A stretch of 5,269 nt of DNA, taken from Deltaproteobacteria bacterium. Lineage in GTDB: Bacteria; Desulfobacterota; Desulfobulbia; Desulfobulbales; BM004. Below are positions 2,456 through 4,156 of the stretch, piece after piece (the stretch's first letter is position 1; the number at the start of each line of letters is the position of its first letter). The notes under the pieces were generated by a model. It was not told the DNA's origin and made no database searches. It saw only the letters and a program-made list of their open reading frames with translations. The stretch is taken from contig JAFDCC010000227.1 of assembly GCA_019312985.1 (NCBI GenBank), positions 1 through 5,269 on the forward strand, in the 5' to 3' direction. The position numbers were made by a program, and so were the translations under genes.

Positions 2456-4156
2456 ATGGCAAAAAGAATTGTAATTGATCCAGTGACGCGGATTGAGGGG
2501 CACCTGCGGATCGACTGCGAGGTTGACGGCGGCAAGGTCACAAATGCCTGGTCTTCGGGCCAGATGTGGCGCGGCTTTGAAGTAATTCTCCAGGGAAAGG
2601 ATCCAAGGGACGCGTGGATATTTACCCAGCGCTTCTGCGGGGTCTGAACGTCAGTCCACGCACTGGCTTCAGTGCGTTCGGTTGAAAATGCCCTGGGCAT
2701 GGAAATCCCGGTCAATGCCCAGTACATCCGTAATATGATCATGGGCGCCCATGCAGTGCATGATCATATTGTCCATTTCTATCACCTCTGCGCCCTCGAC
2801 TGGGTGGATATCGTCTCCGCCCTTTCAGCTGATCCCAAGGCGACCGCAAAACTGGGCCAGAGTCTTTCAGACTGGCACCGGAACAGTTACCAGGAAATTA
2901 AAAACACCCAGGACAGGCTGAAGGGTCTTGTTGATTCGGGACAGCTCGGCATTTACGGCAGCGGCTACTGGGGTCACCCGGCCATGAAACTCAAGCCCGA
3001 GGTAAACCTGCTGGCAGCGACCCATTACCTCCAGGCCCTGGAGTACCAGAGAAATATCAACAAGGTCGTATCAATTCTCGGCAGCAAAACACCGCATATC
3101 CAGAACGTCGGTGTCGGGGGAGTCGCGAATGCCATCAATCTCGACAGTCCGGACACCTTGAATATGGAAAAGCTTTACCACATCAAAACCCTGATTGATG
3201 AGGTCAATGACTTTGTCAAGAAGGTAGCCCTGGTTGACGTCGCAGCGGTCGGCGCCTTCTACGCCGACTGGACCGGCTATGGCAAGGGTGTCACCAATTA
3301 CCTCGCCGCGCCGGACATGCCCATTGATTCAAAAGGCACCGAGTTTGCCCTTCCCGGCGGCTATATCCCTGATGGTGATATTGGCAAATTCACCCCCATC
3401 ACGAGTTTCAACGATCCTTACTTTGAAGACAATGTCCAGGAATCGATCAAACACTCATGGTATGACGGTGAGTGGACCCGCCATCCCTATAAAGAGGAAA
3501 CCGTCCCCAAATACACCGACTGGCAGGATGACGGCAAATATTCCTGGGTCAAGGCCCCCACCTTCCTGGACAAGCCGGCCCAGGTCGGCCCCCTTGCCAA
3601 TGTCCTGACCATGTTTGCCGCCGGCCACAAGCCTACCCAGAAGTACGCCACCCAGGTTCTTGACACGGTCAGTTCCCTCGCAGGTGCAAAGGTCGGGGTC
3701 GGTGCGCTTCATTCAACCATCGGCAGAATCGCCGCCCGCGTCATCCGCTGCGCCGTATTGAACGATACGCTGAACAGCCAGTGGAGCCTGCTTGTCAACA
3801 ATATCGCCAGCGGCGATGCAACAACCTTCAACCCGCCGACATTTCCAAAAGGCGAGCAGCAGGGTTTCGGTTACCACGAGGCACCCCGCGGCATCCTGTC
3901 CCACTGGGTTGTCATAGAAAACGGCAAAATCAAGAACTACCAGGCGGTCGTGCCTTCAACCTGGAATGCCGGTCCCCGCAACGGCAAGGACGAACTTGGC
4001 CCCTACGAGGCGGCCCTGCTCGACAACCCGGTGGCAGATCCTGAGAAGCCGCTGGAAATCCTGCGGACCATCCATTCTTTTGACCCGTGCCTGGCATGCG
4101 CCATTCACATGGTCGACAAAAAGAACAATGAAATTGTCAGGGTCAAGGTACTCTAA
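2456..4156 (+). CDS. hybC: [NiFe] hydrogenase large (catalytic) subunit, HybC type, with a predicted selenocysteine (TGA at 2645-2647)
   Basis: The catalytic subunit cleaves or forms H2 at a Ni-Fe centre. The start is ATG 2456 with GGAGGA at 2442-2447. The N-terminal motif D-P-V-T-R-I-E-G-H-L is typical of the family. The Ni-binding L1 motif reads Q-R-F-C61-G-V-U64-T-S-V-H68-A-L-A, where codon 64 is TGA. The same frame then runs uninterrupted to TAA 4154-4156, giving 566 residues, about the size of E. coli HybC. Further landmarks are H-D-H-I-V-H-F-Y-H-L about 35 residues after Sec64, the E-A-P-R-G-I-L-S-H-W block, and the C-terminal L2 motif D543-P-C545-L-A-C548-A-I-H551. Maturation should cut after H551, removing 15 residues. 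No signal peptide is present; export is expected by hitchhiking on HybO. I infer Sec because the TGA replaces exactly the family cysteine, the flanks are fully conserved, a SECIS-like hairpin follows, and no ribosome site supports restarting downstream. A nonsense mutation (TGC/TGT to TGA) or a sequencing error remains possible. Confidence 0.9.
2645..2647 (+). other. Predicted selenocysteine codon (UGA) in the hybC L1 motif
   Basis: The codon series TTC-TGC-GGG-GTC-TGA-ACG-TCA-GTC-CAC matches R-F-C-G-V-[C/U]-T-S-V-H, so TGA stands where the family has its second L1 cysteine, the Ni-Fe bridging ligand (Cys68 in D. gigas numbering). A TGA ends hybD in the same operon (4704-4706), so general reassignment of TGA to tryptophan or glycine is not supported. 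Confidence 0.85.
2656..2681 (+). promoter_or_regulatory. Candidate bacterial SECIS hairpin downstream of the hybC UGA
   Basis: The stem ACGCACTG (2658-2665) and CAGTGCGT (2670-2677) is 8 bp, perfect, and closed by a GCTT loop (2666-2669). Two further pairs, C2656-G2681 and C2657-G2680, are possible across a U-C bulge on the 3' side. The loop begins 18 nt after the UGA and has G as its first base, matching the published general criteria for bacterial SECIS elements (loop 16-37 nt from UGA, G within the first two loop bases). It lacks the bulged U inside the upper stem known from E. coli fdhF, so its own SelB may recognise a different form. The element lies wholly within coding sequence. Confidence 0.75.
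2732..2770. repeat. Perfect 12-bp inverted repeat inside hybC
   Basis: AATATGATCATG (2732-2743) and CATGATCATATT (2759-2770) are exact reverse complements around a 15-nt spacer; two G-U pairs can extend the stem in RNA. Each arm contains the self-palindrome ATGATCAT. It encodes the conserved residues N-M-I-M and H-D-H-I. It starts 84 nt after the Sec codon. It may be an mRNA structure, or a coincidence produced by the codons of a conserved protein segment. Confidence 0.6.

Follow-up and report, generated by a model that had tools for sequence, protein, structure and literature searches.

The [NiFe]-hydrogenase large subunit encoded in this DNA is very probably a selenoprotein, in which selenocysteine is predicted at the position of HybC Cys64, with selenium as a ligand bridging nickel and iron. 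From the related genes that we have compared it appears likely that a further type of selenium hydrogenase, with selenium bridging Ni and Fe, has arisen in bacteria more than once, that a large clade of Nitrospirota has gone on to the UGVU form, with selenium at both L1 ligands and a single hairpin for two selenocysteines at a distance of nine bases, and that these enzymes have been overlooked because gene callers start behind the UGA.

The hydrogenase operon and its in-frame TGA

The window, by which we mean the whole stretch of 5,269 nucleotides that was analyzed, comes from an assembly of 1.59 Mb in 299 contigs that is estimated to be 61% complete. All the genes of the operon lie on one strand, comprising those for the small subunit, a HybA-like protein, the large subunit and a HybD-type protease, together with the start of a HybB/NrfD-like gene. 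This gene set is that of a membrane-linked hydrogenase operon like E. coli Hyd-2. The features are as follows.

307..1410, + strand: [NiFe]-hydrogenase small subunit (hydA/HybO type) with twin-arginine signal; TIGR00391 467 bits (cut-off 179.5), PF14720, PF01058 and a TAT signal domain
1414..2397, + strand: HybA-like 4Fe-4S electron-transfer subunit; NF008134 (HybA) 354 bits (cut-off 263)
2456..4156, + strand: [NiFe]-hydrogenase large subunit, HybC-like, 566 residues with the TGA read through; PF00374, and 784 bits to the E. coli Hyd-2 large chain 6en9
2630..2647, + strand: L1 motif R59-F60-C61-G62-V63-[TGA]64, from the sequence and alignment to HybC Cys61/Cys64; coordinates computed from the ORF start
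2645..2647, + strand: in-frame TGA, predicted selenocysteine at the second L1 cysteine (HybC Cys64)
2658..2677, + strand: SECIS-like hairpin with 8-bp stem ACGCACUG/CAGUGCGU and loop GCUU at 2666-2669, from the fold, the hairpin test and frozen synonymous codons
4082..4099, + strand: L2 motif DPCLAC, with Cys codons at both cysteines
4170..4706, + strand: HybD-type hydrogenase maturation protease; PF01750 116 bits, TIGR00140 165.8 bits (cut-off 151.8)
4731..5269, + strand: NrfD/HybB-like membrane subunit, incomplete at the window end; PF03916, and NF008133 (HybB) 143 bits on the partial protein, below the cut-off of 450

The large subunit, read through the TGA, is matched by PF00374 across all 508 positions of the model (713 bits, cut-off 25.8). 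This agrees with the statement of the first-pass annotation, made from the sequence alone, that conserved hybC sequence continues on both sides of the TGA over 566 residues. It is the one PF00374 match in the 61%-complete assembly. E. coli Hyd-2 (HybC; PDB 6en9) has the same gene set as the window and is the closest solved structure. The score against NF007778, the equivalog model of the Hydrogenase-2 large subunit, is 873.8 bits, below its cut-off of 969; the kind of operon is shared with Hyd-2, but the large subunit is a different equivalog from NF007778. In an AlphaFold model of the protein the pLDDT is below 50 at the active-site loops, and we take no active-site geometry from it. An Rfam search of the window returned a single match, to a microRNA model with an E value of 0.53, that was taken as chance.

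The open reading frame at 2456-4156 has the in-frame TGA at 2645-2647 as its sole interruption. In the alignment to 6en9 residue 64 pairs with HybC Cys64, the second cysteine of L1 (RFCGV*), and the TGA therefore lies exactly at the second cysteine of RxCGVC, as had been noted initially. We take this cysteine to be a ligand that bridges Ni and Fe (Cys68 in D. gigas numbering). At the four nickel-ligand positions the gene has three cysteine codons and one UGA, rather than four cysteine codons. According to the accessible text of PMC11212049, two of the four cysteine sulfurs join Ni to Fe, and the corresponding positions in Hyd-2 are 61, 64, 546 and 549.

The position is distinct from that in the classical [NiFeSe] hydrogenases (HysA; NF045518; PDB 5jsh and 1cc1), which upholds a further point of the initial reading. 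As predicted for the window, the classical enzymes have one nickel-ligand cysteine replaced by selenocysteine through a UGA. Their selenocysteine, however, is the equivalent of HybC Cys546, the first cysteine of L2, and is non-bridging (PMC11212049, accessible text), whereas the UGA of the window is at the second cysteine of L1. Membership of the classical group was rejected, as L2 of the window is DPCLAC and not DPUxxC, and NF045518 scores 348.5 bits with a cut-off of 780.

Compared with relatives, dN/dS is 0.016-0.064 upstream of the TGA (eight of nine comparisons, the remainder being saturated) and 0.031-0.114 downstream (seven of nine, the remainder again saturated). The low values behind the TGA indicate that this part is under purifying selection. 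An error in sequencing or assembly might have produced the TGA, or the gene might be a pseudogene; the assembly of origin is fragmented and 61% complete, and a related gene (L207) is plainly degenerate. Yet the same codon is TGA in 78 of 164 related genes from many assemblies, including two contigs of 2.4 and 3.2 Mb, and dN/dS behind the TGA does not exceed 0.114. The recurrence of the codon and the dN/dS values lead us to reject error or decay, to which we give practically no chance.

The hairpin behind the TGA and the selenocysteine genes

In the window the TGA is followed by ten bases and then by the 8-bp stem with its GCUU loop, so that the distance from TGA to loop is 18 nt. The hairpin folds with an energy of -16.5 kcal/mol (z = -2.49), and three of 200 shuffled sequences were as low. 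The rules for bacterial SECIS elements, as given in the accessible text of PMC13188914, are a G at one of the first two positions of the loop, a distance of 16-37 nt from the UGA and an energy of -7.5 kcal/mol or lower. In a simple hairpin scan such an element is present in 30 of 31 selenocysteine genes compared with 22 of 69 cysteine genes, and the hairpin energies differ between the two groups (Mann-Whitney p = 5.5e-12). The 22 cysteine genes, which include several near-identical Azospirillum genes, have the loop at 33 nt (14 genes), 22 nt (six), 36 nt (one) or 18 nt (one, L024). The folding energy of the whole 48 nt does not separate selenocysteine from cysteine genes (means -16.8 vs -16.6).

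Codon usage is the strongest evidence for a SECIS element. In 27 selenocysteine genes of the main type the relative synonymous entropy of codons +4 to +10 is 0.053, the lowest seven-codon window among 452 scored columns, with a gene mean of 0.78. At the same codons the value is 0.737 in 69 cysteine homologues. The clade that has both L1 cysteines as TGA likewise has its minimum directly behind the codon, with an entropy of 0.307 vs 0.78.

The stem of that clade exhibits paired changes, A-U to U-A in L155, and both A-U to G-C and G-C to C-G in L158. In 17 of its 35 sequences, picked by eye for one shared hairpin register and therefore favoring pairing in the test, two pairs are changed on both sides, giving a covariation score of 0.152 vs 0.058 in shuffles, with none of 500 as high. 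Over all the values calculated, between 0 and 6 of 500 shuffles reached them, and the signal was nearly gone when the pairing partners were slid. Other sequences have a shifted or bulged hairpin (for example L152). For the window's own type of hairpin no pair is changed on both sides, since there is almost no variation.

Among the outcomes that the first-pass annotation had named as counting against selenocysteine were close relatives that all have cysteine, with no SECIS-like hairpin and with further disruptions in this copy. We find instead that close relatives have the same TGA, that the hairpin is conserved, and that the gene has no other in-frame stop.

The genome that contains the window has a complete selA and a selD with one in-frame TGA. 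There is also an N-terminal part of selB, ending 65 bases before the end of the fetched stretch, which looks like a gene cut at a contig end. Of the four sel genes that had been proposed as a check, selA, selD and part of selB are thus present, while tRNA-Sec (selC) was not found in this 61%-complete assembly, though it is present in the congeners G003, G004 and G005. A candidate for tRNA-Sec of 46.6 bits in the assembly is a tRNA-Ser by ARAGORN. Among the 17 genomes with a TGA gene in a sample of the order, selA was found in 16, selB over cut-off in 16, selD in 16 and tRNA-Sec over cut-off in 10. The sel genes provide a weak test within this order because nearly all of its genomes have them (selA in 53 of the 58 sampled).

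The Nitrospirota differ among themselves in selA. Of the genomes tested there, it is present in all 35 that have a TGA gene vs 24 of 45 without TGA among the matches listed (Fisher p = 3.9e-7 with kinship ignored, a value that overstates independence since the genomes are related). It is present too in 13 of 13 genomes of further selenocysteine loci, 11 of which are labeled Nitrospirae or Nitrospirota. In G046 (contig C19), G018 (C104) and G011 (C61) an 89-nt tRNA-Sec-like gene lies near selD, beside the standard set, and G046 and G018 have a second, shorter selB match also near it.

Could a dedicated tRNA decode the UGA as cysteine (or tryptophan), with no selenium involved? The failure to find tRNA-Sec in the window's assembly would fit, but the protease gene in the same operon stops at an ordinary TGA (4704-4706), and such decoding would need neither a frozen hairpin nor the tracking with selA. 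Moreover, the selD of the genome has an in-frame TGA of its own. Given the UGA stop in the operon, the hairpin and the link with selA, we judge reassignment to be highly improbable, and we continue with selenocysteine.

Recurrence of the TGA and the double form

The related genes are a targeted sample and not a census, since selenocysteine genes were used as queries and TGA-bearing matches were fetched on purpose. Among the 164 distinct genes of this sample (92,672 codons) L1 is CGVC in 86, CGVU in 43, UGVU in 35 and UGVC in none. The 78 genes with TGA at the codon of the window thus include 35 that also have TGA three codons earlier, and a TGA confined to the first L1 cysteine was seen in none of the 164. 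The recurrence at the window's codon is far beyond chance; only two of the genes have an in-frame stop at any other place. L190 has a TAA near the C-terminus, and L207 (G716, contig C5), a degenerate large-subunit gene, has a TGA and a TAG outside L1 while its CGVC is intact. No TGA was found at L2 in any TGA gene with a readable L2 (L036, L064 and L207 gave no L2).

Of the 58 genomes in the order sample, that of the window among them, 17 carry a homologue, complete or nearly so, with 74% identity or more and one in-frame TGA, always at the window's codon. This is the result of the comparison of TGA with TGC/TGT in homologues that had been suggested at the outset, and the window's own genome is one of the 17. 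A scan using one genome per species gave 80 loci, partly the same genes, from Desulfobacterales, Desulfobulbaceae, Deltaproteobacteria, Nitrospirae and others. Order sample and species scan together contain 100 distinct genes, with TGA at the window's codon in 31 and TGC/TGT in 69. From the phylum of the window 395 genomes were sampled, and 145 of them have matches with an E value of 1e-150 or lower; from these 11 TGA-bearing matches and one without were fetched. The 11 matches with in-frame TGA (the window apart) among those listed comprise nine with a single TGA at residue 64, the double gene L203 and the degenerate L207. Of these nine, seven belong to a single lineage, in which the motif is RSCGVU or RACGVU and the identity to the window is 47-50%. 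The residue before the first L1 cysteine is Phe in the window (2633-2635, residue 60), as it is in 23 of 43 single-selenocysteine genes, six of 86 cysteine genes and one of 35 double genes; this may reflect lineage or adaptation to selenium.

Both L1 cysteines are TGA in L052 and in the second hydrogenase of L059. Locus L059 has neighboring hydrogenase sets on one Nitrospirota contig, at 644-5698 and 6807-9643, one with CGVU and the other with UGVU. With its second hydrogenase as query, matches at E 1e-60 or better were found in 154 of 395 Nitrospirota genomes, and counted by row, at least 71 of the matches listed have two in-frame TGAs and at least 26 have one. In all 30 of the best Nitrospirota matches that were fetched, query included, the two TGAs are at the L1 cysteines and L2 is DPCMAC. 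Two genes of the double form are on long contigs, L187 on one of 3.2 Mb and L188 (the same gene as L149) on one of 2.4 Mb; L175 and L181 are double as well. The relatives L171, L176, L179 and L180, at 64-68% identity, are of the single form, and other relatives have cysteine.

In the UGVU form the two UGAs, at a distance of nine bases, would share one hairpin, so that a single SECIS-like element would have to decode both. By arithmetic the hairpin lies about 23 and 32 nt from the two UGAs in the double genes and 18 and 27 nt in L052, and all of these distances are within the quoted SECIS range of 16-37 nt. The second gain would place selenium on the terminal L1 ligand too. A short stem in which the UGA itself takes part, UGAAC....GUUCA, can form in 34 of 35 double genes and in 47 of all 78 selenocysteine genes, and corresponds to the first 14 bases from the second L1 TGA (for example L141, 1687-1700). 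Its GTTCA part is at the same place in 11 of 86 cysteine genes.

In two genomes, G252 and G356, a cysteine homologue lies beside the selenocysteine gene. This would be in keeping with a selenium-dependent switch, whereby in the absence of selenium the ribosome would go no further than residue 63 and the cell would rely on a selenium-free hydrogenase. We consider such a role for the UGA improbable. The window's assembly, itself incomplete, has a single PF00374 match, and a switch would in any case be compatible with insertion of selenocysteine rather than exclusive of it.

A tree of 99 rows calculated with the L1 columns removed has five changes between cysteine and selenocysteine. In a tree of 149 rows, which is a quick one with some long branches and in which gain and loss are not distinguishable, there are nine changes, or 13 with the double state separate, and well-supported branches force at least seven (Cys label). 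Hairpins differ between lineages, which suggests that selenocysteine at L1 has been gained several times. Loss may also have occurred; L024 (1690-1735) is a cysteine gene within a selenocysteine clade that has kept its hairpin (-10.8 kcal/mol), and it looks like a recent return from selenocysteine to cysteine. The lack of any gene with TGA solely at the first L1 cysteine makes it probable that selenocysteine arose at the second position before the first. As judged from the gene sequences, the predicted trait is one that recurs in several lineages.

Possible role of the selenium and loss from databases

We propose that the UGA at 2645-2647 would be decoded as selenocysteine by virtue of the following hairpin, which SelB would bind to deliver Sec-tRNA. 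Sec64 would then enter the cofactor, with selenium replacing sulfur between Ni and Fe. The softer selenolate would shield the ligand from irreversible oxidation and speed the reductive reactivation of an exported uptake hydrogenase. That selection has acted through protection from oxidants and reactivation of the enzyme is a guess, and a tentative one.

E. coli Hyd-2 has been engineered with selenocysteine at 61, 64, 546 or 549, and according to the accessible text of PMC11212049 each variant was active, at below native levels, while C546U was the one with markedly different voltammetry. The same source thus provides an active enzyme with selenocysteine at exactly position 64. HybC has four natural cysteines and the engineered forms one selenocysteine each, whereas two are predicted for the natural UGVU form. 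The activity of the engineered variants indicates that Sec64 is chemically workable. Its benefit is not evident from them, since C546U was the markedly different one, and such benefit, if any, probably does not lie in catalytic bias.

The main rival to protection and reactivation is that the L1 selenocysteine is real but of no special benefit, the exchange of cysteine and selenocysteine being near-neutral once the machinery and a suitable hairpin are in place. This would account for the cysteine gene L024 with its hairpin of -10.8 kcal/mol in a selenocysteine clade, and it is consistent with activity in all four engineered Hyd-2 variants (PMC11212049, accessible text). It fits less well with nine changes in which the second L1 cysteine is always among those changed, with an L2 that has cysteine wherever it was read, and with the retention of the double form in a large Nitrospirota clade. 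On balance we think near-neutral exchange unlikely.

The archaeal proteins VhuA/VhuU and FrhA, which are group 3 enzymes, are selenocysteine-containing [NiFe]-hydrogenase subunits, as is predicted here. Their motif is UxxC in a 2026 inventory that covers 119 families and subfamilies of prokaryotic selenoproteins, in the accessible text of which [NiFe]-hydrogenase alpha subunits appear only with UxxC (PMC13188914). The archaeal SECIS is in the 3′ UTR (same source, accessible text), whereas the hairpin of the window is directly behind the TGA. We found no description of a natural hydrogenase with selenocysteine in L1 in a literature search that left subscription journals mostly outside, so that an earlier report is possible. 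Within the papers covered by that search the motif strings CGVU, UGVU and CGXU turned up in four unrelated papers only, and UGXU in none.

The natural selenium hydrogenases that we found described have selenium at one terminal ligand, and are models for how selenium helps in H2 chemistry and in resistance to O2. If our reading is correct there is also a natural bridging selenolate, and the stepwise series CGVC, CGVU and UGVU with its cysteine sister genes would offer pairs in which the role of each ligand can be tested. It would further point to a widespread active-site selenoprotein, the L1 part of which is missing from many database entries.

We examined the best 120 database proteins for a double-selenocysteine gene. 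None of the 120 stored sequences contains U or X, although the database may write U as C. Exactly 498 residues are found in 59 of them, all starting with MRAVE or VRAVE. The start of these entries is a GTG nine codons behind the UGA, within the hairpin, and with a start behind the UGA the L1 part is lost from the entry. The expectation of the first-pass annotation that gene callers would split or discard the gene is thus borne out in 59 of the 120. A few of the 120 entries are plainly named, for example as nickel-dependent hydrogenase large subunit.
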